This document shows positions 24,578 to 64,000 of a stretch of DNA of 64,000 nucleotides, in pieces. Below the pieces are notes generated by a model, which worked only from the letters and a program-made list of their open reading frames with translations, ran no database searches and was not told the DNA's origin. Position 1 is the first letter of the stretch; the number at the start of each line of letters is the position of its first letter. This DNA is from Pyropia yezoensis. Lineage: Eukaryota; Rhodophyta; Bangiophyceae; Bangiales; Bangiaceae. A program made the translations under genes and the position numbers. The DNA is taken from NCBI GenBank assembly GCA_009829735.1, contig CM020618.1:20321346-20385345 (forward strand), in the 5' to 3' direction.

Positions 24578-24609
<32 letters not shown>

Positions 24610-24629
24610 GGCGGTTGGTGGCGGGGGGG

Positions 24630-24662
<33 letters not shown>

Positions 24663-24917
24663 GGCGGTTGGTGGCGGGGAGGGGGGTGGCGGTGGCGGTG
24701 GCGGTGGCGGTGGCGGTGGCGGTGGCGGTGGCGGTGGCGGTGGCGGTGGCGGTTGTGGGGCGGTTGGTGGCGAGGGGGGGGGTGGCCGTGGCGGTGGCGG
24801 TGGGGAGGCGGTGGCGGTGGCGGTGGCGGTGGCGGTGGCGGTGGCGGTGGCGGAGGCGGTGGCGGTGGCGGTGGCGGTGGCGGTGGCGGTGGCGGTGGCG
24901 GTGGCGGTGGCGGTGGC

Positions 24918-24949
<32 letters not shown>

Positions 24950-24958
24950 GGCGGTTGG
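24411..24958 (+). repeat. (GGTGGC)n hexamer array with interspersed GGGGCGGTTGGTGGCGGG units
   Basis: About 550 bp of near-perfect GGTGGC tandem repeat, interrupted about six times by a GTGGGGCGGTTGGTGGCGGGG-like unit and by occasional GGAGGC. The array runs directly into the 5' LTR of element 1. On one strand it is almost pure G/T/C with four-G spacing, so G-quadruplex formation is likely. Frames across it translate to Ala-Val, Arg-Trp or poly-Gly and are not genes. Confidence 0.9.
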
Positions 24959-25427
24959 TGTGGCAGTATTGACCCCCAGGTAGGGGGGCAACACGTGCCA
25001 TGCAAGGGGCGGCAGGCCACTAGCCTGATCCGTTCCTCCCCCTGCATTTGGGTCCATATTTTCTAAGTTTGGGATAGTTAGCTTAGTAGTAAATCCAACT
25101 TGGATTTGAGGGTTTTCTGCATTTATCGTCTTGAATTTTCGTGTGGCCCGGTGGGCAGGTGCTGGGGTGGGAGATTCTGAGTGGCGAGATTCTGAGTGGA
25201 CCCTGGGGGGATAAGGGGAGGGACAGCGGGGCTTGGCCCTGCGTCCCCGTCCCGACCAAGAAACTGTTGGACCACACACCATCCTCTTGTTTGTCCGTGG
25301 GGGGTTTGCCCCACAACAGGGACAGAGTGTGTGCGACTTGCACTTCTTCCGGTTCCCCCGACACGGGAGGCAGCCCTAGCACACCGCCCCAACTTGGGTG
25401 CCGTGTGTGCTTGTGGTTTTTGCCACA
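24959..25427 (+). repeat. 5' LTR of element 1
   Basis: 469 bp, nearly identical to 33867-34335, with perfect 7-bp terminal inverted repeats TGTGGCA and TGCCACA. Differences from the 3' copy are TT versus CC at about 25067-25068 and C versus T near 25290. It should contain promoter and polyadenylation signals, which I could not pinpoint. Confidence 0.95.
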
Positions 25428-25429
25428 TT

Positions 25430-25448
25430 TGGTGGAGCAGCAGGGGAC
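25430..25448 (+). promoter_or_regulatory. Primer-binding site of element 1
   Basis: TGGTGGAGCAGCAGGGGAC begins two bases after the LTR. Its reverse complement ends in CCA, as expected for the 3' end of a primer tRNA whose acceptor strand would end CTGCTCC-A-CCA. The same 19-mer follows the LTR of element 2. Which tRNA it is cannot be told from the window. Confidence 0.75.
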
Positions 25449-25546
25449 AGAGGTAAACTTTACCTCCGGGTGCACCCGGGTGTAGGGGGCCCTCTGTCTC
25501 AGAGGAACGGTGGTCTTGGACCGTGTCATACGGATCGTCAGCCAAC

Positions 25547-27358: not shown

Positions 27359-27489
27359 CGCCGCGAGGGTGGGTCTCGACCGGTCGTTGCGGTCGCCACA
27401 CCCTCGGCGGAGGAGGCGGACACGTCGTCCTCGGACTCGTCGTCTTCCTCCCCGCCCTCAGATTCGGACGCCAAGTCGGCGGGAAACGA

Positions 27490-28434
27490 ATGACCGTTGG
27501 GGCTGGTCGTCCGAAGCTCACAACGGCAGCCTTGGCCAAGTGGGCCAGGAGGACGAACCAACCGTGCCGGATACTGCGGCGACCTAAGGGAGTCCGCCCA
27601 CCTCGGGTAGGACTCCCCAAGAACGTAAACCCACGTCGGGTCATCGCGGTGCCGACGGGTGAGAACTTCCAGGTGGCTGGACGGGTGCAACTTGCCCCCG
27701 GCCGTGCATGCTCTACCCGTATCGTACTTGATACCGGGTCAGGAGCCTCCTTGATACGCAAGTCGCTATTACCAAAGGAGGTGAAGCTCCAACGCTGGAG
27801 GTCCAAAGCTGACCATATGATTGACATCAATGGTGGGGTACTTCCCATCGTTGGTGCCGTGACCCTACCAACTAGGTTGGGGACCCATGAGGTCGACGTG
27901 ACGTATGGCGTAGTTGAGAATATATCGGTACCCCTGCTTCTGGGTACCCCTTATGTTGTTACACAAGTGCCTTTGATTTGTGGCCCTGAGTACTGGGTCA
28001 AGTTGATGAATGGGGAGACTATCCCCATCCTTGGTAAGGGAAAGTCTGTGGTTCCTGTGACAGTCTCACAGTCGAAGCCTGTTTGCTCTGTGAGGGAAGG
28101 GTTTACTGCTACCCTGCGTTTAGCCCGCAAAGTCACGTTGTCCCCCAACTCGGTGGCGCACGTTGATGTTGTAACTGATTTTACGGGGAACGGGTTGGTG
28201 CACCCTCACCCCCGTCTTGCTCGCAAGCACCAAGTGCATGTTGCCCTTGGCACGATGGACTCCAAAGCCGGAGTCCCGTGGAGGATCCAGGTGATGAACC
28301 AGAGCCCGACGCCCAAGTACTTCAAGTCGGGAGCCAAGTTCGGCTATATCGACCAACACGAGGGACCGGTAGTAGCGGTCACCCTCAACGCGGGCGCAAG
28401 TAGCGACCCGAAGTCCGGAAAGGAGAAGCATTAA
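27490..28434 (+). CDS. Protease region of element 1 pol
   Basis: 314 residues, from ATG 27490. Contains the retropepsin active site LDTGSGASL at about residues 81-89 and a downstream LLLGTPYV-type flap/ILG strand, so it is an aspartic protease that cleaves the polyproteins. The ATG overlaps the TGA of the extended gag frame as ATGA. The frame ends at TAA 28432-28434, and the reverse transcriptase frame continues in the same phase directly after it. So the protease is either a separate product, or pol is interrupted by a single stop. Confidence 0.82.
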   Translation: MTVGAGRPKLTTAALAKWARRTNQPCRILRRPKGVRPPRVGLPKNVNPRRVIAVPTGENFQVAGRVQLAPGRACSTRIVLDTGSGASLIRKSLLPKEVKLQRWRSKADHMIDINGGVLPIVGAVTLPTRLGTHEVDVTYGVVENISVPLLLGTPYVVTQVPLICGPEYWVKLMNGETIPILGKGKSVVPVTVSQSKPVCSVREGFTATLRLARKVTLSPNSVAHVDVVTDFTGNGLVHPHPRLARKHQVHVALGTMDSKAGVPWRIQVMNQSPTPKYFKSGAKFGYIDQHEGPVVAVTLNAGASSDPKSGKEKH

Positions 28435-28464
28435 ACCAAGTCGGCCGCCTCTCCTCGACCCCAT

Positions 28465-31400
28465 GTGAACATGGAGGGTGTCCCCCCCAGGTTGAGGGTT
28501 CAAGTTGAACGCCTCTTGGACCAATATCACAAGCTGTGGGATGGTCAATTGGGACTCATGAGAGCCACCCAACACCGGATCGAGTTGAAGCCCGGTGCAC
28601 CCCCTATACGCCAACAACCGTATAGGGGAGGACCTCGTTCAAGGGCCCTCGTTAAGGAGCAAGTTGCTCGCATGGAGGCCCTCGATGTGATCGAGGCCAG
28701 CAACGCCGAGTGGGCGAGTCCGGTGGTTATCGTCCCCAAAGTTGATGGGACCCCCCGGTTTTGTATCGACTACCGTAAGCTCAACGAGAGCACGGTGAAG
28801 GACAGTTATCCCCTACCTAGGATGGATGACTGTCTGGACTCTCTGGGGGAGGCAAACGTGTTCTCTACCCTGGACTGTAACGCGGGGTACTGGCAAATTC
28901 CCATTGCCCCGGAGGACAGGCATAAAACTACCTTTACCTGTCACTGTGGTACCTACCAGTGCAAGCGCCTACCGTTTGGTCTGTGTAACGCGCCGGCAAC
29001 TTTCCAGCGCGCTATGGACATGATTCTGGCCGGAGTACGGTGGCAGATCTGTCTTGTGTACCTAGACGATATCATTGTGTTCTCCCGAAGTCCGGAGGAA
29101 CACATTGGCCATCTTGGCCAGGTGTTCAAGCTACTTGCTGACGCCGGTGTGTCACTGAAGGCGAGTAAGTGCCACCTCTTCACTCAAGAGGTGGAGTACT
29201 TGGGACATGTTGTCCGTCCGGGGCGTCTCAGTGTTAACGAGAAGAACTTGAGAGCCATACGTAAGGCTCAGTACCCCCGGACCCAGACCCAGATGAGGAG
29301 CTTCCTCGGGATGTGTAACGTGTACCGACGTTTCACCAAGGGCTTCGCCAAGGTGGCGAAGCCGTTGAATGAGCTAGTGAGCTCAACGCTACCGAAGAAC
29401 CTGCCTCCCCCAAGTCGGGTGGAGCAAGAATCCTTTGAGACTCCTCGGGACCTTCTGCTGAAGCCCCCCATCTTGGCAATTCCCAGGTTGGGAGGCCACT
29501 ACATCCTGGATGTGGACGCTAGCTACGACCGACTTGGTTGTGTGTTGCTTCAGCAGCAGCCGGACAAGGAGTACTTGCCGGTGGGATACTTTAGTAAGGG
29601 GCTGAACTCGGCCGAGAAGAACTACGGAGTCACCGAGTTGGAAGGACTCGCAGTGGTGTGGGCGGTGACGTCACTTCGTCACTACCTGGAGGGTGAGAAG
29701 TTCCTCATCCGCTGTGACCACCGCGCGTTGCAGTTCATCTTTAAGACGGACTGTACGAACACTCGTCTCAACCGGTGGAGGGTGCGACTGGCACCCTTCA
29801 ACTTTGACATTGAGTACCGACCTGGCAGGCAACATGCCCTTGCCGACGGCCTCTCTCGGGTACCTACCGAGGGGCTGGACACTAACCCAGTCGATGAGGA
29901 CATCCCCATCGTGGGGGTAGTCACGCGCTCGGGTCAGGCGTTGAACCCCGAGGCGCCAGGGAACAAGAAGTACTTGCCCCTGTCCCTGGACGAGGTGGTG
30001 AAGGCCCAGGCCGAGGATCCCTTCTGCAAGTCGCAGAGGGATATACTGGATACGGTGGTTGAGACGCGCTTCTTTCTGGGAGACGATGGCCTCCTCATGA
30101 GGAGGGGGGTATTCCAGGGGACCGAACAACTTGTCGTCCCCGCATCCCTCAAGGACAGTATCCTTGAGAGGGAGCACAACGCTCCCACGGGTGGACACCT
30201 GGGGTCTAGTAAACTGTACCAGACCCTGAGGACCAGGTACTACTGGCCGTCCATGGTGGTGGACATCTACAGTTGGGTGGCTGCCTGCACAAGTTGTGCA
30301 CAGAATCGTCTGATGGAACGGCGGCCTAGTACGGCTATGCTATTGTTCCCGGCCAAGGAGCCCTTCGCCGCGTTGGCGATGGACATCCTTGGGCCACTGC
30401 CCGTGACCGAGGAGGGCAACCAGTACCTCCTGGTCATCTGTGACCGCTTCACGAAACTTACGCGAGCGATCCCACTGGCAGAGATCACGGCCATGTCGGT
30501 CGTGTCAGCCTTCCTAGATCACTGGGTTGCCGCGTATGGCATCCCAGATAGTACACTATCGGACAATGGACCGCAATTTGCGTCTGTACTGTTTCAGGGA
30601 GTGCTGGATATGTTGGGGGTTAAGGCAAACTATGCCACCCCCTACCACCCACAAACTAATGGGCAGGTGGAGCGCTTCAACAAAACTACTGTTAGGCAGC
30701 TGCGCCACTATGTGAGTGAGCACGTGAAGACGTGGGACCAATATATTTCTATCCTTACTACTGCCTACAATTCGCAGGTTCACTCATCTACAGGGGAAGT
30801 ACCCCTCGCTTTTGTGACCCCCCGTCGCGTGCGGTCTATTGCCGTGCGGCGGTCGCTCCCAACTAGGGAGGATGGTGGCAGTACGCCTACTCCTACTGAG
30901 AGTAAGGCGGAGTTCGCCGCTAGGCTTGAAAACCTCATCCCTAAAGTCAGGGCTGAGATGGACAAAGCACAAAAGCGCTACAAGCGTACCTTTGACAAAA
31001 AGGTGCGCAATGCTAAACATGTCCCCGAGCAGGGTGACTGGGTGCTGGTACACTCGCACACCCCAACTGGGGGTAAGCTGGTATTCCAGACGAAGGGACC
31101 GTACCAGGTCCTTCGTACTGATGGGCGGCGCTTCACCATCGAAAGTGACGATGGGGTCCGCACAGTGAACGGACAGGACGTGGTCAAAGTTGCACCACCG
31201 CCTGCAGGCGACCCAGCTTGGGCACGTGCGTTGGAGTCGTGGCGCCTCCGCTCACTGCCTGCGGCCAAACAGGGCCCGCAGGAGTACGTGTTCGATAAGT
31301 TCATCGACCACGGATGGGATGAAGACACTGACCGCCTCATGTTGAGGGTGCGTTGGTTTGGCTACAAAGCCAAGGACGATACATGGGAGTATGTGGAGGA

Positions 31401-31473
31401 CCTTCCTGCTGAGAAGGTCCGGGCGTACTGTGCCCGGAATGAGATAGACCCTAACAGCCCTCCCTCAACGTGA
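28465..31473 (+). CDS. pol: Reverse transcriptase, RNase H, integrase and chromodomain of element 1
   Basis: About 1000 residues, in phase with the protease frame; first ATG is 28471. Reverse transcriptase: FCIDYRKLN and the catalytic YLDD near residue 198. RNase H: DVDAS near 352, TELE and DHRAL. Integrase: an H-H-C-C zinc motif (GGHLGSSK to CTSCAQ, about 575-615), then the DDE triad in MDILGPL (about 638), SDNGPQF (about 699) and NGQVERFN (about 733). The C-terminus (about 935-990) is a chromodomain with the pattern LRVRWFGY-x6-TWEYVEDLP, which in this clade directs integration to marked chromatin. All catalytic residues that I can place are present. The only visible defect is the stop before this frame. 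Confidence 0.93.
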   Translation: MNMEGVPPRLRVQVERLLDQYHKLWDGQLGLMRATQHRIELKPGAPPIRQQPYRGGPRSRALVKEQVARMEALDVIEASNAEWASPVVIVPKVDGTPRFCIDYRKLNESTVKDSYPLPRMDDCLDSLGEANVFSTLDCNAGYWQIPIAPEDRHKTTFTCHCGTYQCKRLPFGLCNAPATFQRAMDMILAGVRWQICLVYLDDIIVFSRSPEEHIGHLGQVFKLLADAGVSLKASKCHLFTQEVEYLGHVVRPGRLSVNEKNLRAIRKAQYPRTQTQMRSFLGMCNVYRRFTKGFAKVAKPLNELVSSTLPKNLPPPSRVEQESFETPRDLLLKPPILAIPRLGGHYILDVDASYDRLGCVLLQQQPDKEYLPVGYFSKGLNSAEKNYGVTELEGLAVVWAVTSLRHYLEGEKFLIRCDHRALQFIFKTDCTNTRLNRWRVRLAPFNFDIEYRPGRQHALADGLSRVPTEGLDTNPVDEDIPIVGVVTRSGQALNPEAPGNKKYLPLSLDEVVKAQAEDPFCKSQRDILDTVVETRFFLGDDGLLMRRGVFQGTEQLVVPASLKDSILEREHNAPTGGHLGSSKLYQTLRTRYYWPSMVVDIYSWVAACTSCAQNRLMERRPSTAMLLFPAKEPFAALAMDILGPLPVTEEGNQYLLVICDRFTKLTRAIPLAEITAMSVVSAFLDHWVAAYGIPDSTLSDNGPQFASVLFQGVLDMLGVKANYATPYHPQTNGQVERFNKTTVRQLRHYVSEHVKTWDQYISILTTAYNSQVHSSTGEVPLAFVTPRRVRSIAVRRSLPTREDGGSTPTPTESKAEFAARLENLIPKVRAEMDKAQKRYKRTFDKKVRNAKHVPEQGDWVLVHSHTPTGGKLVFQTKGPYQVLRTDGRRFTIESDDGVRTVNGQDVVKVAPPPAGDPAWARALESWRLRSLPAAKQGPQEYVFDKFIDHGWDEDTDRLMLRVRWFGYKAKDDTWEYVEDLPAEKVRAYCARNEIDPNSPPST

Positions 31474-31584
31474 GGGAACGCCGAGCAACAGTGCCACGAG
31501 AGTGCTTCAAGTCGAAGTGGTACGCAGAGTGGCTTTTAACTACAGCCCTAACCCTCACACTCTCACAACAAAGGCAGCTGCCAA

Positions 31585-33528
31585 CTAGGCACGCATGCTA
31601 GACTCTCCCACTCCACGGCCCTCGCCCTCACGTGGAGGCGAGCGGCGAGACCCACGCCGATAACGGTCTCCACTCGTTGGAGGGGGCGGCGGCTCCAAGT
31701 CGGAACCGTCGCGCCCCTCACGGTCGCGCAAGTGGCGCCGACCGTGGCCACTCTTCTGCCTGGTCTTGCGCGCAAGTTTGCGACGCAGACGCTGGACAGA
31801 CTCCGTCTCCGACGGGGTAGAGGACTCCGAGACGGAGTAAGACAACTCGTCTTCCGACACGGAGGGAGAGCGCCGAGAGTGTCGGCGACGACGGCGAGGA
31901 GGCGAGTATGCCCGGCTCGCGCGACGTTTGCCACGCCCAAGTGGGGCTGGCTGGGGCATAATAGCCCCAATGCGAGCCAACTCGGCTGTCATAAACTCCG
32001 CCACCGACTCGCAACTCGCGGTCGCTACTGCAGTACGAACGCGCTCCTCAAGTTGAGGAGTCTCGGAACTCTGTAGGGTTGCGGTCGACGCGGCCAACCA
32101 GGAAATGGTGCGCACCAACGTGGTGATCATCATCTCTGAGGTTAGAGGCGTGGGCGGCAACACCAACTTGGGGTATACCGTCAGGAGGGTGGCCCCCAAG
32201 TTGGGGGACACCGGGGTGGAAGACTCTACGGCCACGCTGATCGGGATGTTCCCGTGAGGTTGGAAAGGAACCGGAGGAAGCGGAGGGGCCCGCTGAGGTG
32301 GCGGTACCCGGGTGTAACTGCGACCCCGACTTGGGGCTCCCGCAGTGGGTTGAGTCATGTGGTCATCATAGGACGGCACGGCCATAACTATGGGCTTGTC
32401 CGGGGGTGGCGCAGTGTGGCGATCCACCCCCGGGGCATACGGGTAGTCCCCGATGCCCAACCCCTCTCGTAGGACCACACGGCCGTCGTGAAGTTCACGA
32501 GCGACCCACACGAACTGGCGAAGTGCGCCATCGTCCTTGGGCCCACGAGTGGGGCGGCGCAACTTGTGCTCAATGCTCTCCCACTCGATAAACTTATGGA
32601 GCCGGAGCATCTCCTCAAGTAGAGTGAGTTGTCCTGATGAGCACCCCTCAGCAACTAGCTGAGGGGTGAGCTGTTCCAAACCCTGGATGAGCCGGAGGGG
32701 GAGATGCCAGAGCATCCCCCGCCGCTGAACACAGGACACCCAGGTCGACATGACCTCGAGGAGCCACTGGGTGGCCAACATGGCCCACACCAGGTGATCA
32801 GGGGCAGCCGTCAACATGACGGAGCCGAAGTGGTCAAGCAACCGGGGCAACAACGCCGGGAACCCGTAGGGGACCTCAACTTGAGGCCACCACTCGGGCT
32901 TCTTCGGATAGTACTGCTCCTTACTGGCAGCAGAATGTTGAGGAAACTCAAGTTGAGCCGAGGTCACCAAGTAGGGACCTCGCCGGAAGTCTTTCTCCAT
33001 CCGCACATCAAAGTGATGAGTGTGCGGATCGGCCTCGTGGAGGTACGGTGGGCGAGTTGCCACAGCGTCCCACGTGAAGGTCGGCAAGTCGCCGGGACCC
33101 GGGATAGTTCCCCCGCGGTCCACCATGGCCTTGGCACGTTGGACGTCTTCAACCTCCTCGTCGTCCAGGAAGGCAAACTGGTCCGTCCTGAAGCCGGCCG
33201 GGAACCCGACCCTACGGGGATACTTCTCCCGTAGGCGGTCCCATACCCGGCCCATCGCTGCGCCAAGTCGGCCACAGCGAAGAACAGTCAACCCCTCCTC
33301 ATAAAGAGGCCAAGCGGGGTAAAACCACCGCCCCAAGGCCTCACGCGGGACAACTTGTCCCGCCTCCGGGGGAGACCCCGCCGTCAACCCAAAGCCGGGT
33401 GACGCGGGAGTCCCATCCCCCGGAGCGATCGCGGAGCCCCCGCCGGAAGTCCCGGCGGGTGCTGCCCAGTAGGAGGTGTCCTCCATGCGCTCGTCAAGAG
33501 AGTCCGTCTCCACTCCCGGAGTCGCCAT
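31585..33528 (-). CDS. Antisense accessory protein of element 1
   Basis: 647 residues on the strand opposite gag and pol, convergent with pol (gap 111 bp) and lying between pol and the 3' LTR. ATG at 33526-33528; the frame is open to 33699. No known domain was recognised. It has good mixed composition, unlike shadow frames here. A helix-rich domain at about 228-315 runs from HFGSV through RRGMLWHLP to LHKFIEW and is matched at the same place in the antisense frame of element 2. The C-terminal 100 residues are rich in Arg and Ser with RRRRRHSRRSPS, resembling an RS or nucleic-acid-binding tail and a likely nuclear signal. Antisense frames at this position are known in some plant Ty3/gypsy elements (Retand, Grande, RIRE2). 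The function is unknown. Confidence 0.78.
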   Translation of the reverse strand: MATPGVETDSLDERMEDTSYWAAPAGTSGGGSAIAPGDGTPASPGFGLTAGSPPEAGQVVPREALGRWFYPAWPLYEEGLTVLRCGRLGAAMGRVWDRLREKYPRRVGFPAGFRTDQFAFLDDEEVEDVQRAKAMVDRGGTIPGPGDLPTFTWDAVATRPPYLHEADPHTHHFDVRMEKDFRRGPYLVTSAQLEFPQHSAASKEQYYPKKPEWWPQVEVPYGFPALLPRLLDHFGSVMLTAAPDHLVWAMLATQWLLEVMSTWVSCVQRRGMLWHLPLRLIQGLEQLTPQLVAEGCSSGQLTLLEEMLRLHKFIEWESIEHKLRRPTRGPKDDGALRQFVWVARELHDGRVVLREGLGIGDYPYAPGVDRHTAPPPDKPIVMAVPSYDDHMTQPTAGAPSRGRSYTRVPPPQRAPPLPPVPFQPHGNIPISVAVESSTPVSPNLGATLLTVYPKLVLPPTPLTSEMMITTLVRTISWLAASTATLQSSETPQLEERVRTAVATASCESVAEFMTAELARIGAIMPQPAPLGRGKRRASRAYSPPRRRRRHSRRSPSVSEDELSYSVSESSTPSETESVQRLRRKLARKTRQKSGHGRRHLRDREGRDGSDLEPPPPPTSGDRYRRGSRRSPPREGEGRGVGESSMRA

Positions 33529-33853
33529 GGCTCTCCCCAAGTTGGGGAGAGACGCTCTGGCTATCGCAGCACGAGACCCGCCTCGAGTTGAGGGGGACTC
33601 GGATCGTGGGTATACGGGTGGCCTCCCCAGCGTGGGGCGGCCCAGTGGAAGGTGAAGGGGAGGTGGTGGTGATGGTGAAGTGTGAACTGAGGAGAGCAAG
33701 CTGCGGAGTGGGCAAGCTTGAGGAGAGGGGCGGTCAACGTGACCGCCTCCACATCCGTGTTACGTACTCGATGGGGGACAACAAGTCGCGCCCCCAACGC
33801 CGAGACGTGCGTTTACGCACCCCCTCACAGGGCCGACCGGGTCGGTCGGAACT

Positions 33854-33866: not shown

Positions 33867-34335
33867 TGTGGCAGTATTGACCCCCAGGTAGGGGGGCAAC
33901 ACGTGCCATGCAAGGGGCGGCAGGCCACTAGCCTGATCCGTTCCTCCCCCTGCATTTGGGTCCATATTCCCTAAGTTTGGGATAGTTAGCTTAGTAGTAA
34001 ATCCAACTTGGATTTGAGGGTTTTCTGCATTTATCGTCTTGAATTTTCGTGTGGCCCGGTGGGCAGGTGCTGGGGTGGGAGATTCTGAGTGGCGAGATTC
34101 TGAGTGGACCCTGGGGGGATAAGGGGAGGGACAGCGGGGCTTGGCCCTGCGTCCCCGTCCCGACCAAGAAACTGTTGGACCACACACCATCTTCTTGTTT
34201 GTCCGTGGGGGGTTTGCCCCACAACAGGGACAGAGTGTGTGCGACTTGCACTTCTTCCGGTTCCCCCGACACGGGAGGCAGCCCTAGCACACCGCCCCAA
34301 CTTGGGTGCCGTGTGTGCTTGTGGTTTTTGCCACA
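33867..34335 (+). repeat. 3' LTR of element 1
   Basis: 469 bp, TGTGGCA to TGCCACA, matching the 5' LTR except for three bases seen by eye. It is followed directly by unrelated sequence. Confidence 0.95.
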
Positions 34336-34690
34336 GCCATCATACACATTGCCCCGCAGAAGGAACTCGTCCTTGAGGTGAGATACAGTCCGATGCACCT
34401 TGGTGGTGTTGGTCTCACCAAGCAGCTCGTGAAAATCATTCTCGAGAAACTCGAAGAACCGCTCGCACAAGCTCTTAGCACGCAGCCACGTCATCGGGCT
34501 CGTGTTCAAGATGTCCCGCAGAAGCGCGGCCAGCTCACAGAGCCTTCACGTCAAAATCCCATGGTACCGTCGGCCCGGTGCTTCGCGACCGACGAGTCCT
34601 GCCACCGCGAACGACATAGAGTGCACGGCATCGCGGTGCTCCTTCCCCTTGAGAGTTGCTTGCAGAGACCCAGGCTTATTGAAATAACCG
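34336..34690 (-). pseudogene. Fragment of a transposon-like gene next to element 1
   Basis: Read on the minus strand, about 34620-34340 gives segments such as AVHSMSFAVAGLVGREAPGR and, after an in-frame stop, LCERFFEFLENDFHELLGE followed by TNTTKVHRTVSHLKDEFLLR. The frame runs into the LTR without an end. The composition is protein-like, and the last motif resembles the region around THxLxHHxxDE seen in some transposon-borne genes (weak recollection). It looks like the remnant of an element or gene truncated where element 1 joins it. The left side of element 1 carries no matching continuation. Confidence 0.33.
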
Positions 34691-38473: not shown

Positions 38474-38836
38474 TGTAGCAATATGGTTGGCCGTATTGTG
38501 ACCCTAATGTTAGGGGGGCTACTTCTAATCCTTGGCTTTCAATTTGAGAGTCCGTACTGGTCACGGTATCTACAAGTTACGTATGACCAGAGGGACTTGC
38601 ATCTTGGGGTGGAGGGTAGTTAGTAGTGTCTCCGAGGGTTTATAACGAGGGGGCCGGCGGTGAATCCACCGCCGGCCAAGGCAGAATAACAAACCCCTCC
38701 CATTTGGGCTCCCATCTTGGTCCCGTGGCTTGCGCTCCAAGGACAGCAACCTTGGCCTCCCGGTGACGTTGGTGCCGATCCCCCTTGGTGAGTGCTCCCT
38801 GAGAGTGGACGTGCGACGGATACCTATTGTGCTACA
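38474..38836 (+). mobile_element. Solo LTR of the element 2 family, with 5-bp target duplication
   Basis: 363 bp from TGTAGCA to TGCTACA, matching the 5' LTR of element 2 (54843-55205) except for nine substitutions counted by eye. It is flanked on both sides by GCGTG (38469-38473 and 38837-38841), the target duplication of the original insertion. It lies inside the Crypton coding remnant, between the linker and the DNA-binding domain, so it inserted after the Crypton. It then lost its internal part by LTR-LTR recombination. Confidence 0.95.
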
Positions 38837-54842: not shown

Positions 54843-55205
54843 TGTAGCAATATGGGTGGCCGTATTGTGACCCTAATGTTAGGGGGGCTACTTCTAATCC
54901 TTGGCTTTCAATTTGAGAGTCCGTACTGGTCACGGTATCTACAAGTTACGTATGACCAGAGGGACTTGCATCTTGGGGTGGAGGGTAGTTAGGAGTGTCT
55001 CCGAGGGTTTATAACGAGGGGGCCGGCGGCGAATCCACCGCCGGCCAAGGCAGAACAGCAAACCCCTCCCATTTGGGCTCCCATCTTGGTCCCGTGGCTT
55101 GTGCTCCAAGGACAGCAACCTTGGCCTCCCGGTGACGTTGGTGCCGATCCCCCTTGGTGAGTGTTCCCTGAGAGTGGACGTGTGACGGATTCCTATTGTG
55201 CTACA
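54843..55205 (+). repeat. 5' LTR of element 2
   Basis: 363 bp; the same family as the solo LTR at 38474-38836. Contains a GGCCGGCGG-AATC-CCGCCGGCC palindrome near 55020-55044 and a TATAA (TTTATAACGAGG) near 55008 that may serve transcription. Confidence 0.95.
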
Positions 55206-55206
55206 T

Positions 55207-55225
55207 TGGTGGAGCAGCAGGGGAC
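55207..55225 (+). promoter_or_regulatory. Primer-binding site of element 2
   Basis: TGGTGGAGCAGCAGGGGAC, one base after the LTR and identical to the site of element 1; complementary to a tRNA 3' end with CCA. Confidence 0.75.
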
Positions 55226-55430
55226 GGGTTTCCGTCACCCTTGTGGTGACGCCGTCTTCGGCCCTGGCACACGGATAGGGATCCGGTCCTTTTCTTGTAC
55301 TCGTGGTGTTGCGACCTGTTCGATTGTGTTGAGTTTTTACCTTTGACTGTGATCTACTGTTACTCTCCCCAATCTACCCCCTCGCTCTCTTATTCGTGGT
55401 GATTGTTACGTCGGTTGACTGATTGTGACT

Positions 55431-57572
55431 ATGAATATGTCTACCCAAGAGACGGGGAACGTTCAAGATGACGGATCGGCGTCGACGCCGACTCCGGAGG
55501 TGACTACGGGAACCGGGATCGGGAACCCGATCGACAACATTGAGACGCCAATGCTTTCCGGTGCCGGATCGACGTTTGGCACGGCTCGGACGACAGGAGG
55601 CGGGGGTCCGCCTCAACTGTCATCGACCGACCTCACTCCGCCGCCTCCTTCACCAGGGGATTCCCTGATTGCATCATTGGCCCGCATCGAGGCCCGGTTT
55701 TCCGGGCTCGACGCCCGTCAAGATCGGACGGAGGACGCAATGGCAGTGTTGATGTCAACACGCCACACGACGGGACCCCGACGTGTTCCTCCCACACCGG
55801 TACGGTTCGAACCGGCCGGACTACTTTCGGAGTCCACCAGGGTCAACCCCGGTGTTGCTACTCCTGGACAACCCCCGGACACAATGGGGTATGGATCCGA
55901 CTCGTCGGCCGAGTTGGAACGGAGTCACACGGAGCGATACGCTCGGAGCACCCGAAGCGGACTCCGCGGACACGACCCGGCGGATACTTACGCCGGTGGA
56001 GAGTCGGTTATTGGGGGAGGGGGTACCCTCTCACAGTACCCCCACGACGAAGGAGGCCAGGCAACTCGGGTTCCCGAGGTGCCGACGCCTGAAGTACCAT
56101 CTTCAGTGGTGGAAGCTATGACCGCGCAGGTAACTGCGAGCCAACTGAAGCGGATGGAGTCCGATGAGTTTGCTCATCAACTGGCTAAGCGACTGGATAT
56201 CCAGGACGCTGACACGGAGATCGTCAACGAGGTCTTCCGGCCGGTTCTTACTCCGGAACGTTATCGTTTGGAGGACCGCTCTACCACCGTATCGGAATCG
56301 ATGCGTAATACGTCGCATCGGGCGATCCGCTCTATGCAGACCCTTATGAAGGGAGTCCCTATGTTCGGGGGCCCCAACGAACGCCCGTTGGCAGTCATCG
56401 GCTTCTTGACTAGCTTCAAGGCAGCCGCGGACAAGGCGCTCGTAAACGAGGGGCTGGCCCTGGAGATCCTCCCGTTCTTTGTTGATGAACGGGTGCGAGG
56501 CATTCTTCGCCAGGCATCCCCGATGCCGGGAATGAGGGTCGCGGCCACCCCCATGGATTACCGTGGGATTCTCAAGGAGCTGCTGAGCAGCTACCTCAGT
56601 GAGGACAAGTGCGAGGACCACTACCGGGCCCTGCGCACTGCCACCGCCCAGAGCTGGGAGGATGAGGAGATGTTCGGACGACGGATTCAAGAGCCCGACT
56701 ACGAGCTGGGGAAGCTCCTCGGAGAAGGGGAGCTACGAGCCATCCTGTTCGCAGGAGTACCCAACTACGTGCGGATATCCGCACGGGGCGCCAACACGGC
56801 ACGGACGAACTTCAGTCGACTGATGCATATGTGCAAGTCCCTGGGGGACGCCTACCGGGTGCTTCACCCGGAGTGTGCTCTTGCCTCAAAGCCCAAGGGT
56901 GAGGGGAGCAAGCCCAGTCTTATCCCGGTACCGAGGCAAGAAAAGACGGAACGGAAGGCCGCACCGGTACTGGTGGCTACCGATTACGCCCCCACGGGCG
57001 AGGAGGAACCACTGGTTGACCAGCAGGGCCACCTGCTGTTACCGGCTACGCCGGTAAATGATGAGCAAGGTACGGTAGCGTACATCGCTCCGGCGGGGAC
57101 CCAGTTCCAGGTCAGCGAGGGCACGCGACGTCGCGTCCCGTACGTACGGACTACGGGGTACTCCCCGGTGACGGGTAACTCTCACCAACCCTTGCCAACA
57201 TGGGCGGTGCGCACGGAGGCACCCCCGCAGATTGCGGGCCGACCCAACCGGTTGGGGGAGTCCATGTTCCGGTTGACCCAAGGACCCAAGGCCTACCAGG
57301 GAGCAGCCACTCGGGCGCCTGAGGGAGGCAACCGCAGCTACGAGGCTACCCCGATGCGAACTCAAGGGGGGACCGGCACGTCCGGATGTATGTTGTGTGG
57401 GGATCCCCAACACTGGGTGTCTTCCTGCCCACTCATCCCCGAGGAGTCTCGGCGGGCAGCGGCGCAACGCAAGGCATCCACCGGGGGGTATCCCGCCAGA
57501 GCACCCGGACCCGCACCGGGTAGGCAGCCAGCTCCAGGTGGAGTACTGGCCGTCGAGGAGGCACCTCCTTAG
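55431..57572 (+). CDS. gag: Gag polyprotein of element 2
   Basis: 713 residues, from ATG 55431 (another ATG six bases on). The N-terminal 220 residues are Thr/Pro/Gly-rich. The capsid-like helical part lies at about 290-490 (MFGGPNERPLAVIGFLTSFK and following), the same fold pattern as in gag of element 1. A single CCHC knuckle, CMLCGDPQHWVSSC, is near residue 652, followed by a basic Arg/Pro tail. Pol begins 57 bp after the gag stop in another frame. Confidence 0.87.
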   Translation: MNMSTQETGNVQDDGSASTPTPEVTTGTGIGNPIDNIETPMLSGAGSTFGTARTTGGGGPPQLSSTDLTPPPPSPGDSLIASLARIEARFSGLDARQDRTEDAMAVLMSTRHTTGPRRVPPTPVRFEPAGLLSESTRVNPGVATPGQPPDTMGYGSDSSAELERSHTERYARSTRSGLRGHDPADTYAGGESVIGGGGTLSQYPHDEGGQATRVPEVPTPEVPSSVVEAMTAQVTASQLKRMESDEFAHQLAKRLDIQDADTEIVNEVFRPVLTPERYRLEDRSTTVSESMRNTSHRAIRSMQTLMKGVPMFGGPNERPLAVIGFLTSFKAAADKALVNEGLALEILPFFVDERVRGILRQASPMPGMRVAATPMDYRGILKELLSSYLSEDKCEDHYRALRTATAQSWEDEEMFGRRIQEPDYELGKLLGEGELRAILFAGVPNYVRISARGANTARTNFSRLMHMCKSLGDAYRVLHPECALASKPKGEGSKPSLIPVPRQEKTERKAAPVLVATDYAPTGEEEPLVDQQGHLLLPATPVNDEQGTVAYIAPAGTQFQVSEGTRRRVPYVRTTGYSPVTGNSHQPLPTWAVRTEAPPQIAGRPNRLGESMFRLTQGPKAYQGAATRAPEGGNRSYEATPMRTQGGTGTSGCMLCGDPQHWVSSCPLIPEESRRAAAQRKASTGGYPARAPGPAPGRQPAPGGVLAVEEAPP

Positions 57573-57628
57573 CCGGAGGTCCCGGCGGACAGCACCCTAC
57601 CAAGGGCGGGAAACGAGTAAGAGGAAGG

Positions 57629-60600
57629 ATGACCGGGGGGCGCTGGGGTAACCCAAGCAAGCCACCCCGGAGTACCGCGGGGAAAGCCCCACGGAGAGCG
57701 CGGTTGAGCCGACGCCGCATCAACCCCCGGGTACACCTTCCGGCCCCGACGATACGGCGTCAGGGGATTGATTACCAACCTCCAAGGTTGGGAGGAGAGG
57801 ACGGGAAGCCCCGTCACATGGAACCAGACAAGGGCCCTGTTCAGGATGCCCGAGCTACACCGGATATCGGTGTAGGCCACGTGCTGTTCACCTTGGAGAA
57901 CTTCAAGGTATCAGCCACGCTGGGGGTTGACCCCCAGTCGACACGATCGTACTACCCTGTACTGGATACAGGGGCTGGACCCAACCTTATCCGGAAGGAC
58001 ACCCTCCCGGACAAGTGGCTTCCGCGAGTCAGAGTGACTCGGGGACCCACCATCAAGGACGCGAATGGTCGCCTCATTCGTACGACCGCAGCGATGTCGC
58101 TGCAGGTTACCATCGGGGAACTCACCACGGAAGTCGACTTCCTGGTGTGTGAGACCCTAGCGGTGCCCTGCATATTGGGATGCACCTTCATCAACGTTCA
58201 CGTTGATGCAATCCGGCCGGGCCGGAGGACCGTCGAACTTCAAGAAGCCGACGGGACGAAGCGAGGACATACGGCTATCGTCAGGGACCTGACGCTACAA
58301 GGGAGCCACGTTAACGTGGCTGAGGTGTACGCAAGCGTCGAGCCGAAGACACTTCGGTTGGCCAAGCGAACTCGCTTTGAGCCGTTGTCGGAGACAGTCC
58401 TCCCGGTTAACTGTGACCTCGCAGGCATCTGCAGATTCAAGTCCAACCTGCGGACGTACAAGCGCCATGGGTTGACCATGGCCAACGGTCTCATAGACCT
58501 CCCAGCAGGAGGGTCGTCCCTCCTAGTGATGGCGAACTATCGCCGTAAGGCAGTCACCCTCCCGAAGGGAACTATCCTCGGGATTGCCGAGCTCTACGAA
58601 GGAGATATCCTTACCCCTGACAAGGAAGGTCAAGTGGAACCACTTGAGGTGCTGGCGGTCGCCGAGACCACCGAGCGACAGCAACCCGATGACGGGAAGC
58701 CTAGCCCATCGGCGGCTCCGGCGGACATGCCGCCAAAGGACCAAGAAGCCTTGAAGGCTCTGGCCGAGGCCGACCTCGACCACCTTCCCCCTTCGGTAGC
58801 CGAAGGGGTACGACGGATGCTAAGAAAGCACGACGTCATGTGGACAGGCGGGGCCTTGGGTACCATTGGGGCAACCCAACATCGTATAGACCTGGTACCA
58901 GGCGCACGCCCCGCCCGGTCGCAACCGCACCGAGCGGGACCTATGCAACGAGAGATCGTTGATGGAGAAGTGAAGAGGATGAGTGAAGCGAAGGTGATAC
59001 GACCTTCGATGTCGGAGTGGGGTGCCCCAGTCGTTATCGTACCGAAGAAGGATCAAACCCCTCGGTTTTGCATCGATTATCGACGCCTCAACTTGGTTAC
59101 CAAGAAGGACTCATACCCTTTACCAAGGATGGATGAATGCATCGACTCCCTGGGGGAAGCTACGGTGTTTACCACCATCGACTGCAATGCCGGATACTGG
59201 CAGATCCCGGTGGCGGACGAGGATATCCCCAAGACGGCATTCGTCTGTCACAGTGGAGTGTATGAGTTCCTAAGGATGCCCTTCGGATTGTCCAACGCCC
59301 CCGCTACATTCCAGCGGGATATCGACATTATACTGTCGGGGGTGAAGTGGCGTAACTGCCTAGTGTACCTCGATGACGTCATCGTCTTCTCGCGTTACAT
59401 GGATGACCATGTGCAACACGTTGACGAGGTACTCACCCTCTTGAGGGACGCCGGGGTTACCCTGCGTCTGAAGAAGTGCGCCTTCTTCCAACAGACGGTC
59501 GAGTATCTGGGCCACCAGATAACCCCTGGTAAACTAGGGGTACTCGAAGCCAATACCCGGGCACTCCGGGATGCCCGGTTTCTTAACACCCAGACGCAGC
59601 TCAAGAGCTTCCTGGGAATGTGCAACGTATACCCACGGTTCGTCGAGGAGTTCGCTCGGATTGCTAAACCGTTGACGGTTCTTACGAGCAGTACCTTGCC
59701 CAAGGTACTCCAACCCCCTTCGCCTAGCGAAGAGGAGGCATTCGAGTCGCTGAAGCGAGCCCTACTGTCTCCACCCGTCCTTGCGTTACCGCATAGACGG
59801 GGTACCTTCGTCATCGATGTCGATGCGTGCGATACACAAGTGGGATGCACCCTGTTACAGGGGGAGACGTTGATCGGTTCCGATAACGTTATCCCGGACC
59901 TACGTCCGGTAGGGTACTTCAGCCGGACACTCAACCCGGCTGAGCGTAACTATAGTGCCACCGAGCGTGAGTGCCTCGGGGTTATATGGGCAGTGCAACT
60001 GCTCCGTCCATACCTGGAGGGCTCCAGGTTCATCGTGAGGTCCGACCACGAACCCCTACGATGGCTCCTCAACCTTGGTGACAAGGATTCCGATAGCCAT
60101 GGGAGGCTAGCCCGATGGAGGTTGAAGATGGCCGAGCACGACTACCGCACCGTGTATAAGGCTGGGTCAACCCACCACCTCAGAGACGCGCTGTCTCGAC
60201 TCGACACCCCGAGCGGGGATACCCGCCCGGTGGACGAGGACATCCCGGTGGTACCGGTGTGCATGGTGGGTAATGCTACCCAGGGTATGGTTGACCATAC
60301 CATGGCACACCTTGCGTGCCCATTGACCCTCGCGGACTTCCGCGAGGCACAAGCCAATGACGACGACTGTAGACGTCATCGCGCTAACGTCCTGGCCGGC
60401 ACGGCCGGCATCTTCTCCGAGAATGAAGACGGACTCATATACCGGCGGGCACCCGCCGATGGACGACATCAAGTCGTGGTTCCCGTGTCCTTACGGCAAG
60501 CCGTCATGGAACGAGAACACGAGAACCCCACAGCCGGACACCCGGGGGGTTCACGTATGTTCGCAGCAATGCGAAGGTTCTTCTACTGGCCAGCAATAGC

Positions 60601-61795
60601 CGTCGACGTGGTCGACCACGTAAGGGGATGCCACCCCTGTGCACGTAACCGCATGAGTCTACATAGGCAGGCGTCTGCCATGAAGCTGTTCCCACCCGAT
60701 TGGCCCCAACGAGCAATCGCTATCGACTTACTCGGGCCACTTCCGGTAACGGAAGAAGGGAACAGGTACATCCTGGTCATGTCGGACCGCTTCACCAAGC
60801 TGTCACGAGCGGCAGCCATCCCGAATGATACGGCATACACGATTATGAACGCAGTGGTTGACCACTGGATCAGTGCATACGGAGTCATGAAGCAACTCCT
60901 CTCCGATAACGGAGCAAACCTTACGTCAGCCTTCTGCATTAAGGTCCTGGGCATGTTCGGCATCGAATCACGTCGGGCATCCGACTACCACCCGAAAACC
61001 AACGGGCAGGTAGAGCGGTTCAACCGCACCATCGTCAAGATGCTACAGTGCTACGTCGCCGAGCACACGAACACTTGGGACAGGCTTCTGTCCGTACTCA
61101 CCCTGGCATACAATGCCAGGCCACATCGGAGCACGAACATCGCTCCACTGGAGTGGGTCATGCCACTAGGCGTCGGTAACCTGACGCTGCCACCCGGCAG
61201 GTGCACTCGGTATGATGCACCGAAGGGCCGACCGGCCGAACGGATCCACTTAGCTTGGTTAGCCAAGCTATCGTGGATGATACCGAAACTCAAGGGCGCC
61301 CTTGACCGTACACAACTTCGATACAAGAAGAACTTCGACGCCCGGCTACGGGTGCGCAACGCTAACCTGATGTCAGGTGACTGGGTCTACATCAGACACC
61401 AGAAGTTCCGGGGGAACAAGCTCATGCAACCGGTCAAGGGACCGTACCAGATTCTCCACAGAGATGACCACTCTGTTATCTTACACTCCGATACGGAGAT
61501 CCAACGCATCAGTGTGAATGATGTCACACCTGCTCCGAAGCCGGAACAGCCTCATCCGATACCGGCTGGGTTGCTACATGAAGCTCTTACAACCCGCCGG
61601 TCAGAGGACCCGGTGGGACCGGATGGGATTCCATACCAAGTAGAGAGCGTGGTCGGACACACCGACCCGGACCTACCAGGACCCTGGTACGTCAAGGTTA
61701 TGTGGGTCGGATACGACTCACCCACCTGGGAACAGGCGGCAAGTATACCCCGCCAACTCCTCATGCCTTACATGAGGCGACGACGCCTACTGTAA
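57629..61795 (+). CDS. pol: Pol polyprotein of element 2 (protease, RT, RNase H, integrase, chromodomain-like tail)
   Basis: 1388 residues from ATG 57629, uninterrupted. Protease LDTGAGPNL near residue 112 with a CILGCTF strand. Reverse transcriptase FCIDYRRLN and YLDD near residue 579. RNase H DVDAC, TERE and SDHEPL. Integrase zinc region with GGSRMFAAMRRFFYWP and CHPCARNR, then the DDE triad in IDLLGPL (about 1032), SDNGANL (about 1091) and NGQVERFN (about 1127). The tail has VKVMWVGYDSPTWEQA, a chromodomain-like strand pattern. Unlike element 1, protease and RT share one frame with no stop. Confidence 0.94.
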   Translation: MTGGRWGNPSKPPRSTAGKAPRRARLSRRRINPRVHLPAPTIRRQGIDYQPPRLGGEDGKPRHMEPDKGPVQDARATPDIGVGHVLFTLENFKVSATLGVDPQSTRSYYPVLDTGAGPNLIRKDTLPDKWLPRVRVTRGPTIKDANGRLIRTTAAMSLQVTIGELTTEVDFLVCETLAVPCILGCTFINVHVDAIRPGRRTVELQEADGTKRGHTAIVRDLTLQGSHVNVAEVYASVEPKTLRLAKRTRFEPLSETVLPVNCDLAGICRFKSNLRTYKRHGLTMANGLIDLPAGGSSLLVMANYRRKAVTLPKGTILGIAELYEGDILTPDKEGQVEPLEVLAVAETTERQQPDDGKPSPSAAPADMPPKDQEALKALAEADLDHLPPSVAEGVRRMLRKHDVMWTGGALGTIGATQHRIDLVPGARPARSQPHRAGPMQREIVDGEVKRMSEAKVIRPSMSEWGAPVVIVPKKDQTPRFCIDYRRLNLVTKKDSYPLPRMDECIDSLGEATVFTTIDCNAGYWQIPVADEDIPKTAFVCHSGVYEFLRMPFGLSNAPATFQRDIDIILSGVKWRNCLVYLDDVIVFSRYMDDHVQHVDEVLTLLRDAGVTLRLKKCAFFQQTVEYLGHQITPGKLGVLEANTRALRDARFLNTQTQLKSFLGMCNVYPRFVEEFARIAKPLTVLTSSTLPKVLQPPSPSEEEAFESLKRALLSPPVLALPHRRGTFVIDVDACDTQVGCTLLQGETLIGSDNVIPDLRPVGYFSRTLNPAERNYSATERECLGVIWAVQLLRPYLEGSRFIVRSDHEPLRWLLNLGDKDSDSHGRLARWRLKMAEHDYRTVYKAGSTHHLRDALSRLDTPSGDTRPVDEDIPVVPVCMVGNATQGMVDHTMAHLACPLTLADFREAQANDDDCRRHRANVLAGTAGIFSENEDGLIYRRAPADGRHQVVVPVSLRQAVMEREHENPTAGHPGGSRMFAAMRRFFYWPAIAVDVVDHVRGCHPCARNRMSLHRQASAMKLFPPDWPQRAIAIDLLGPLPVTEEGNRYILVMSDRFTKLSRAAAIPNDTAYTIMNAVVDHWISAYGVMKQLLSDNGANLTSAFCIKVLGMFGIESRRASDYHPKTNGQVERFNRTIVKMLQCYVAEHTNTWDRLLSVLTLAYNARPHRSTNIAPLEWVMPLGVGNLTLPPGRCTRYDAPKGRPAERIHLAWLAKLSWMIPKLKGALDRTQLRYKKNFDARLRVRNANLMSGDWVYIRHQKFRGNKLMQPVKGPYQILHRDDHSVILHSDTEIQRISVNDVTPAPKPEQPHPIPAGLLHEALTTRRSEDPVGPDGIPYQVESVVGHTDPDLPGPWYVKVMWVGYDSPTWEQAASIPRQLLMPYMRRRRLL

Positions 61796-61873
61796 CAACC
61801 CAACCGACACCGACTTCGGCTGTTGGGGGGTGAGGCTTATACCTACTAAGTAGGGTGTGACATGGTTACGGCA

Positions 61874-61961
61874 GACTTAGGTTTCTAAGTCAAATCAGAC
61901 TTAGATTTCTAAGTCGAACCAAGCTTAGGCAACTAAGTAGAGTCAAGCTTAGGTAACTAAG
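61874..61961. repeat. Four spaced CTTAG-N-CTAAG palindromes
   Basis: GACTTAGGTTTCTAAGTC (61874-61891), GACTTAGATTTCTAAGTC (61898-61915), CTTAGGCAACTAAG (61924 on) and CTTAGGTAACTAAG (61948-61961). Spacing is about 24-26 bp, and each can form a short hairpin. A fifth, CTACTAAGTAG, lies near 61844. Confidence 0.85.
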
Positions 61962-62039
61962 TAAAACCTGAACCTTAATAAGTTAACTTAAAGGTAAAGG
62001 CTAACTCCGATAATATCGAAGTAACTAGGGGGCTTACAA

Positions 62040-62096
62040 GGGAGGATGACCTCCCCAAGCCAAGACACATAGTGAGGGAGGATGACCTCCCCAAGC
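62040..62096. repeat. Duplicated GGGAGG-ATGA-CCTCCC hairpin
   Basis: GGGAGGATGACCTCCCCAAGC occurs at 62040-62060 and again at 62076-62096, 36 bp apart. Each copy contains a six-pair stem with a four-base loop. Confidence 0.85.
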
Positions 62097-62272
62097 ATGA
62101 ACCAACCGGAAGAAGTTGGACGGGAGGCAAGGCACCACTGAGCCAGAAGGGGTACTCCCAGGGCAGCAAACAGAGGCAAGCAATGCCCCCAAAGGGGATG
62201 AGTTTATACTCACTAATACCCGGCCACCATAAGGGCCACCGGGTCCCTCTCCCGTACAAACAATAACACTCC

Positions 62273-63931
62273 TCAGTGGGTAGACCCACTGCCCGAGGGA
62301 GGCCGCTCACGCGTAAGCGCGTATACCTCCGTGCTCCACCGGTCGGCTATCTCACGACGGTCAATCACCCGAGTTACCTCGGTGCATAGCTGAACGAGGG
62401 TGCTGCGGCCAGCCTCCACGTCCTCCAGAGCTGTCTGGAGGCGGTCAAGCACGCCACCGAAGCAACGCGCTGACCCAACCAGCGCAGCACCTGGGGGGAT
62501 ATCCTCCCAGCGAACAGAGAGACTCTCCCGCATTGCGCGGGCAACAAGGGCGTCAACGCCCTCATACCAGAGACAGGGACTCCCGTCTTGTATGACAGGG
62601 GCGGGAGGGGACACTGGCGCAGCCAGAGGAGCCAGAGGAGCCGACACGGCCACCACCGGAGCCGGTGGCGCCTGATATGAGGCCCGGTAGGACCCCACCG
62701 AAGGGGCTCCACCGTAACCCCGGCGGGGCTCCGCCCGACGACGGGACACCTCACGCTCCCCACCCGCAGAGCCCCACTCTCGGGGACGACGGCCAACCGC
62801 CGCCGGTATCGGGTTACCGAACCACGGGGCAAGGACCTGAAGAGGGACATGGATAACCATGGGAATACCCAGGTCAGCAACAGCCTCGGTGGACGCCCAC
62901 CCATGGCAACTAGGCTCACCCGGCTGAGTACGCCGGATACGCAACGAGTAACGAGGCAAGGGGGAAGCCCCAGCCTGCGGATCCCGGTACGGGGGAAGGG
63001 ACAACACCCCGGCCCAGTTCACGGCATCGTGAACAGCCAGCAGGGCCTCGAACTCCCGGGCCAACCCGGTCTTGGCGGCTATCAGGTCCACGCCCAACTG
63101 CGCGATGTGCCGACGGACACCCGTCGGAAGATGAAACAGGCGCCCCTGCCGGCGGACGGACAGCAAGAAGGAGGAAGCCTGCCCGAGGGTAACCTCAAGG
63201 GTGAAGGTACCCTGCAACGGGTGGACCGACCGGGAGGCCAACACACTCCCGAAGTATCGGAGACAGGAGCCGGTGTCAAACCGGAAAGCAGGGGCGGGTT
63301 CCCACCCCTCCTGCCACAGAGGCGGGCGCACGGGAGTGTATACCGGCGCACGACCGTTGCCGGTCTGCAACGCACACGTTATATCCGTGCGAAACGCATC
63401 CGCCATGACACCATGGTTACGTCGCCAGCTCGACGCCGACTTCAAACCCGCCATAGGCGGGTAGGGAGCCGTCAACGACAGATACGGGGATACCCCCGGG
63501 TAATAATCGAAGTCGGGATACCGACCGGTACTGCCCACCATCTCCCCAAACGCAACCGGCTCCGCCGCCGCCGCAATCCCCCGAGCACTAGCCGGGTAGT
63601 CAACCTCCCGCGGCAACGCGGGAGCAATCAGGTCGCATACCCCGAAGGCGGGGTCGAGGTAGACCTCACCCCGTCCCACCCGGGTGCGCCAGAGCTGCGC
63701 ATGCCGGTCGTCCGGCTGACTCAGGATCCAATGGTGTTCCACCCGCACCGCGTTCGGCTGGTTGACCAGCCGCACCAACTCCCGCTCCCAACTCGGGTCC
63801 ACCTTGACGCGCCGGGAGGACTCTCCACGGGGATGCGGCAGGTGGAAGTCCACCCGCATCCGCCCATCGGACTCCATTGAATCTTGCACAGTCAGGCCGC
63901 GAACCCGAGCCACCAAGTCCGACATCGACAT
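62273..63931 (-). CDS. Antisense accessory protein of element 2
   Basis: 552 residues on the strand opposite gag and pol, between pol and the expected 3' LTR. The ATG at 63929-63931 (MSMSDLVARV) was chosen; the frame stays open to the window edge, so more N-terminal sequence is possible. No known domain. At about residues 222-305 it has YFGSV, then RRQGRLFHLP, then VHDAVNW; the antisense protein of element 1 has HFGSV, RRGMLWHLP and LHKFIEW at about 228-315 with nearly the same spacing. It lacks the Arg/Ser tail of that protein; instead the last third has a Pro/Ala linker and a helical end. Mixed composition and the match argue for a real protein. Confidence 0.75.
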   Translation of the reverse strand: MSMSDLVARVRGLTVQDSMESDGRMRVDFHLPHPRGESSRRVKVDPSWERELVRLVNQPNAVRVEHHWILSQPDDRHAQLWRTRVGRGEVYLDPAFGVCDLIAPALPREVDYPASARGIAAAAEPVAFGEMVGSTGRYPDFDYYPGVSPYLSLTAPYPPMAGLKSASSWRRNHGVMADAFRTDITCALQTGNGRAPVYTPVRPPLWQEGWEPAPAFRFDTGSCLRYFGSVLASRSVHPLQGTFTLEVTLGQASSFLLSVRRQGRLFHLPTGVRRHIAQLGVDLIAAKTGLAREFEALLAVHDAVNWAGVLSLPPYRDPQAGASPLPRYSLRIRRTQPGEPSCHGWASTEAVADLGIPMVIHVPLQVLAPWFGNPIPAAVGRRPREWGSAGGEREVSRRRAEPRRGYGGAPSVGSYRASYQAPPAPVVAVSAPLAPLAAPVSPPAPVIQDGSPCLWYEGVDALVARAMRESLSVRWEDIPPGAALVGSARCFGGVLDRLQTALEDVEAGRSTLVQLCTEVTRVIDRREIADRWSTEVYALTRERPPSGSGSTH

Positions 63932-64000
63932 GGCGGGTTGACCCGCCGCCACGGCGACGCCGCCACCCAACGGGGCAACCCGGGCAGGACCAGGAAGAAT

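Follow-up and report, generated by a model that had tools for sequence, protein, structure and literature searches.

Two Ty3/gypsy-type retrotransposons, here called E1 and E2, which lie in the 64,000-nucleotide stretch of Pyropia yezoensis DNA analysed here (the window), each carry a gene on the strand opposite to gag and pol that encodes a protein with a conserved core. The explanation that best covers the observations as a whole, and to which we assign a probability of about one half, is that this is an ancestral antisense coding gene of a Bangiales Ty3-type lineage and that its product is an accessory protein.

Organization of the two elements

In the P. yezoensis genome LTR retrotransposons predominate among the repeats (PMC7423979). 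Both E1 and E2 are assigned to the Ty3/gypsy type by their LTRs and by the domain order protease-RT-RNaseH-integrase. The 5' LTR of E1 (24959..25427, plus strand; 469 nt, TGTGGC...GCCACA) and the 3' copy (33867..34335, plus strand) share 99.4% identity across 470 nt, and just upstream of the latter lies a PPT-like purine run, TGAGGAGAGGGGAG; this identity points to a young insertion, with its antisense frame open. Between the LTRs the plus strand holds a PBS-like 20-mer, TTGGTGGAGCAGCAGGGGAC (25429..25448), a gag with a zinc knuckle (25523..27358; Pfam zf-CCHC, E 2e-5), a protease-region frame (27490..28434) that matches residues 88-328 of the E2 pol frame at 26% identity across 245 aa, and a frame for RT, RNaseH and integrase (28465..31473; Pfam RVT_1 with E 4e-36, RT_RNaseH, Integrase_H2C2 and rve). 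The last of these ends in a weak chromodomain match (Pfam Chromo, E 6.6e-4; 20.0 bits, under the curated cut-off of 25.1). The antisense gene of E1, encoding the protein P0001, occupies 31585..33528 on the minus strand, between pol and the 3' LTR and tail to tail with pol. Its ATG at 33528 is residue 58 of P0001, the frame being open to 33759, and this start Met is common to the closely related protein P0003.

E1 has several further peculiarities. An in-frame TAA (28432..28434) splits its protease-region frame from the RT frame, whereas E2 is continuous there; the element either reads through this stop or is a broken copy, and since the pol frame is split E1 may not be autonomous. The sequences flanking it, GTTGG (24954..24958) and GCCAT (34336..34340), do not form a target-site duplication, and because the left flank is a simple-repeat tract a rearrangement or mis-assembly is possible. 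The adjoining tract is a long tandem array of GGT/GGC type (24323..24960; repeat family D1, 45 overlapping copies). On the right, a minus-strand open frame (33991..34545), possibly a host exon, enters the 3' LTR from the flank. Inside the element a perfect 10-bp inverted repeat, CTCTCCCCAAgTTGGGGAGAG (33531..33551), stops two bases short of the antisense ATG.

E2 begins with a 5' LTR of 363 nt (54843..55205, plus strand; TGTAGC...GCTACA), followed by the same PBS-like 20-mer as in E1 (55206..55225, plus strand), and its 3' LTR lies past the window end. Its gag (55425..57572, plus strand) is followed by a single frame for protease, RT, RNaseH and integrase (57629..61795, plus strand; Pfam RVT_1 with E 3e-34, RT_RNaseH and Integrase_H2C2), in which the rve and gag-asp_proteas matches stay under their Pfam cut-offs and Pfam gives no chromodomain at E 1. 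The antisense gene of E2, encoding P0002, lies downstream of pol and again tail to tail with it (62273..64000, minus strand), and is open at the window end, so that its N end is outside. An antisense frame is hence present in both elements, as the first-pass annotation of this DNA had reported. The E2 family is also represented by a solo LTR (38474..38836, plus strand), which matches the E2 5' LTR at 97.5% identity across 363 nt and is flanked by a 5-bp duplication, GCGTG.

Homology of the antisense proteins

The motifs that the first-pass annotation had listed occur in both proteins and in the same order: FGSV (residues 291-294 in E1, 246-249 in E2), RxGxL[W/F]HLP (RRGMLWHLP in E1, RQGRLFHLP in E2), QL (343-344 and 301-302) followed by L[V/I]A (LVA in E1, LIA in E2), and H-x4-W (H368-W373 and H324-W329). 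BLASTP aligns P0001 and P0002 with E 4e-7 and 27% identity over 115 residues, in a block that contains the motifs. The profile-profile comparison that had been suggested as a check gave a clear match, with an hhalign score of 55.9 (E 3e-6, probability 88%, 204 columns) against a best score of 27.0 among 200 block shuffles. From BLASTP and hhalign together we place the conserved core at residues 263-377 of P0001 (32569..32913, minus strand) and 221-333 of P0002 (63002..63340, minus strand), the coordinates being computed from the frames.

Searches with a profile of the E2 family point in the same direction. It scores the E1 protein at 19.5 bits, while the best of 2000 block shuffles reaches 7.0, and with filters off it ranks the E1 antisense protein second among 630 open segments of the window, behind E2 itself (E 1e-5, the next segment having E 0.11). 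Under the default HMMER filters a profile built without P0002, P0004 and P0005 does not list E1. P0005, a second copy from the E2 family, can be aligned to E1 along 230 aa (E 6e-10), and among the 11 E2-family members weak matches to E1 are given by P0012 (E 0.01), P0013 (0.02) and P0009 (0.1). By these alignments the antisense proteins of E1 and E2 are homologous. The similar position of the block within the two proteins (about residue 226 versus 233), to which attention had also been drawn, is an artefact of the window edge, because the E2 frame leaves the window and P0005, which is 95% identical, has 298 more residues upstream.

Probable common origin of E1 and E2

E1 and E2 are 45% identical in pol (over 1011 aa), 24.5% in gag (over 220 aa, E 5e-17) and 27% in the antisense core (over 115 residues), and the 20 nt of TTGGTGGAGCAGCAGGGGAC directly or nearly adjoin both 5' LTRs. 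At a threshold of 1e-5 blastn finds no match between the E1 LTR and the E2 LTR; nevertheless, the alignment of their first 60 nt beats 500 of 500 shuffles and that of the whole LTRs 497 of 500, and the LTR junction together with the 20-nt PBS-like stretch also scores above all 500 shuffles. The LTRs, on this evidence, are diverged and not unrelated. Thus two premises of the first-pass annotation, that the LTRs are unrelated and that the elements are two independent families, are not supported, while its statement that the elements are not the result of recent copying is. As pol, gag, the LTR starts and the PBS-like 20-mer are all alike, we regard E1 and E2 as branches of one lineage, and the simplest account is then a single ancestor that already carried the antisense gene.

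One could suppose instead that E1 and E2 separately captured, in antisense orientation, a related host gene or a nested transposon, and it is true that P0006 and five other relatives are annotated as hypothetical proteins of Pyropia vietnamensis. We consider this improbable: the gene sits at the same place and points the same way in two elements that are also related in pol and gag, its core is about as diverged as gag, and Pfam, PHROGs and the PDB sequences gave no match to it above noise. Inheritance of the antisense gene from a common ancestor, and not capture on two occasions, is therefore very probable from the comparison of the two elements.

Evidence for coding and selection

At least ten relatives of P0002 were recovered, of which two are 95% identical and six are hypothetical proteins of P. 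vietnamensis at 41-53% identity; two more stand at 48% and 44% among the matches listed. P0001 has one relative, P0003, at 96% identity. These lists come from scoring, for each protein, the 7994 candidates with which it has most words in common, and for P0001 an uncapped search gave the same single relative. Four of the five remaining P. vietnamensis proteins (P0007, P0009, P0011 and P0012) do not have internal stretches that are found in P0006, and these stretches were probably treated as introns in the gene models. The viral and prokaryote contigs scanned yielded no relatives.

The type of amino-acid replacement speaks for constraint on the protein. Between P0002 and P0006, which are 51% identical over 545 aligned residues, the differing residues have a mean BLOSUM62 score of -0.36. 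When the E2 stretch was allowed to drift neutrally to 52% amino-acid identity in 300 simulations, the mildest mean was -0.60 and every run acquired at least two stops. The selection on the antisense protein that the first-pass annotation had claimed is in this respect supported, the observed differences being milder than in all 300 neutral runs. The corresponding means for P0010 and P0013 are -0.36 and -0.55. Across the 521 columns in which P0001 and P0002 align (23% identity) the mean is -0.91, so that the replacements there cannot be called mild, and constraint is accordingly visible only in the core and among the closer relatives; outside the core the two proteins have either diverged strongly or been misaligned. 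Protein collections are biased towards open frames, and as the open relatives were drawn from them, stop counts weigh less as evidence than the types of substitution. With codon usage trained on gag and pol, the antisense frame is the best of six in both regions, by small margins and with scores under those of gag and pol. Taken together, these sequence-based signs make it almost certain that the antisense gene is protein-coding and selected.

Conservation in the antisense frame could also arise secondarily, if it is a sense-strand gene such as an env-like frame that is conserved. We compared 20 open segments (at least 60 codons, six frames) from the 3' region of E1 with 20 from that of E2, and only the antisense/antisense pair was significant, at an E of about 2e-6, the next best pair having E 0.02-0.03. 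As no sense/sense pair reached significance, the likeness of the antisense proteins is not the shadow of a sense domain; such a shadow is what the first-pass annotation had named as fatal to its proposal. E2 does have a sense frame of 343 aa opposite the core (62849..63880), and when selection was simulated on sense frame 0 the mildest antisense run reached -0.358 against the observed -0.362, with a share of positive-scoring changes up to 0.31 against 0.28. In such simulations, however, the antisense frame always gained stops, with minima of 3, 8 and 2 for the three sense frames in 60 runs each, and opposite the E1 gene the sense frames are broken by 14, 28 and 17 stops. We therefore reject the opposite-strand reading, which we regard as hardly tenable, on the six-frame comparison and the simulations combined, although one sense frame can mimic the mildness of the replacements.

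A second alternative is that the antisense RNA alone matters, by pairing with the genomic RNA and thus causing dsRNA silencing or interference, the open frame being incidental. Antisense transcripts of retroelements that have no coding capacity are described in the survey of PMC7264820. Against this stands the conservation of amino acids in open frames, at 27% in the core of E1 and E2 and 41-53% with P. vietnamensis, which leaves a role of the RNA by itself a low probability; RNA and protein roles may also coexist.

Features of the antisense protein

None of the 13 members of the family matches a Pfam family past its cut-off or above noise, the best noise match being DUF6214 in two of the 13 (E 0.014; a linker at residues 384-452 of P0002). 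PHROGs and the PDB sequences likewise gave nothing above noise, with a best PDB E of 0.46. A likeness of the HLP motif to the plant mobile domain served as a lead, which is backed by no Pfam match and was not retained. HBZ, the antisense product of HTLV, has a bZIP domain; the Pfam results for the antisense proteins include no bZIP counterpart.

AlphaFold models of the two antisense proteins have mean pLDDT values of 36 and 33. Over residues 220-320 of these low-confidence models, the part whose structures the first-pass annotation had proposed to compare, the block means for E2 do not exceed 60 and all residues of E1 lie below 50; helices flank the HLP motif on both sides in both models. Near the C end of E2 (about residues 503-564) a helical stretch has block means of 58-81. 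With low confidence, the models make the core, of about 110-200 aa, largely helical. Both proteins have strongly basic segments (residues 583-704 of P0001, pI 11.7; residues 386-475 of P0002, pI 11.1), and the N-terminal region is basic in P0006 and acidic in P0005.

A helical core joined to a basic disordered stretch is, as far as the low-confidence models go, also the plan of gag-like proteins, so that the product could be a structural or particle component, either a second gag-like or an env-like protein, and not a nuclear regulator. Against this, profile similarity to the elements' own gag is absent (hhalign E 0.55 and 0.81), and a homologue of that gag was rejected as an identification for the same reason. 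We consider a particle component rather unlikely.

Inverted repeats

Short perfect inverted repeats are enriched in E2 (55425..64000) and less so in E1 (25523..33528). Counted with a stem of at least 7 and a loop of at most 12, they number 33 in E2 pol, against a mean of 4.4 and a maximum of 8 in 30 synonymous-codon shuffles, and 10 in E1 pol, against a mean of 2.7 and a maximum of 7; mirror repeats (8) and direct repeats (5) were also counted in E2 pol. Three 4-kb stretches outside the elements contain 4, 6 and 4, and in some low-complexity parts of the window the density rises to 7 per 2 kb, as it does in much of E1. In stems with a single mismatch (20 in E2, 24 in E1 gag-pol) G-T is not in excess over A-C, which makes selection for RNA pairing less likely and favours a process at the level of DNA, perhaps RT template switching. 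The repeat centre GGTTGACC is found five times in E2. Inspection by eye of the gap between E2 pol and the antisense stop reveals repeated palindromes, CTTAG...CTAAG about four times and GGGAGGATGACCTCCC twice (61870..61960 and 62020..62120); counted strictly, this gap contains 2 inverted repeats, a number reached by 3 of 60 shuffles. The leader of the E1 antisense gene contains three inverted repeats, and their interpretation as operator-like sites was dropped because other parts of both elements are enriched as well.

Proposed role and relation to known antisense genes

The ancestral antisense gene that we favour would be located between pol and the 3' LTR in a Ty3-type lineage of bangialean red algae, would date back to the ancestor that E1 and E2 share, and would have been handed down with gag and pol. 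Its product would be an accessory protein composed of the conserved core, a Pro/Gly/Ser- and Arg-rich stretch and, C-terminally, a further helical stretch. The antisense transcript may begin in or beside the 3' LTR, and the protein may enter the nucleus and act there for the element, either by regulating its transcription or by helping its DNA to reach or use chromatin. We lean tentatively towards such a nuclear regulatory or integration role, by analogy and at slightly under even odds, because of the basic segments and because the antisense protein of Grande is reported to be nuclear in the account of PMC7264820.

The closest parallel in arrangement is the aORF-3R class of plant Ty3/gypsy elements, exemplified in the accounts of PMC7264820 and PMC11963269 by Grande gene23, RIRE2 and Retand ORF4. 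Grande is reported to express its antisense product from its own promoter (PMC7264820), and Retand elements, as summarized in PMC11963269, carry antisense genes that lie past pol and before the 3' LTR, most of which encode Transposase_28 (PF04195), thought to bind DNA. The red-algal genes have in common with these, as the same two sources portray them, the antisense place between pol and the 3' LTR, the occurrence in several families and a suspected nuclear role; position, orientation and conservation across families were all found here, with the 3' LTR side of E2 lying outside the window. They differ in their host, a red alga as against plants, the proteins of Grande and RIRE2 being compared by their descriptions. 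Retand is moreover described as belonging to a non-chromovirus lineage, whereas E1 has the weak chromodomain match. PF04195 is not listed for any of the 13 members at E 10, in a search whose filters drop most matches above about 0.1 and whose Pfam copy is assumed to contain that family. Outside plants, Boty of Botrytis cinerea is recorded in PMC7264820 with an antisense ORF at the corresponding site, flanked by pol and the 3' LTR, a likeness in position, and the HBZ gene of HTLV, which PMC11963269 and PMC7264820 mention as antisense and driven by a promoter within the 3' LTR, offers only an analogy for a nuclear regulator.

The first-pass annotation had proposed an undescribed system. In this it was partly anticipated, as the antisense plan is known in plants and fungi, and novelty may lie in the protein family and in its occurrence among Ty3 elements of red algae; among titles and abstract openings of a literature with few subscription papers, antisense genes in red-algal LTR elements are not described. 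The arrangement is thus a known one, and the protein family and the host group may be new. A bolder proposal, less likely than not, is that a red-algal Ty3 lineage has kept its own antisense accessory protein, with an undescribed fold, since the ancestor of families now 45% identical in pol, and that this protein arose independently of those of Retand, Grande and HTLV. If this is true, reverse-transcribing elements would have acquired antisense regulators repeatedly in the region that separates pol from the 3' LTR. Next to the antisense genes of plant and fungal LTR retrotransposons, a further family in red algae, kept in elements that have diverged and having no detectable Pfam relatives, would suggest repeated origin and retention by selection. 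The red-algal case would then provide a separate setting for asking what purpose the antisense slot serves.
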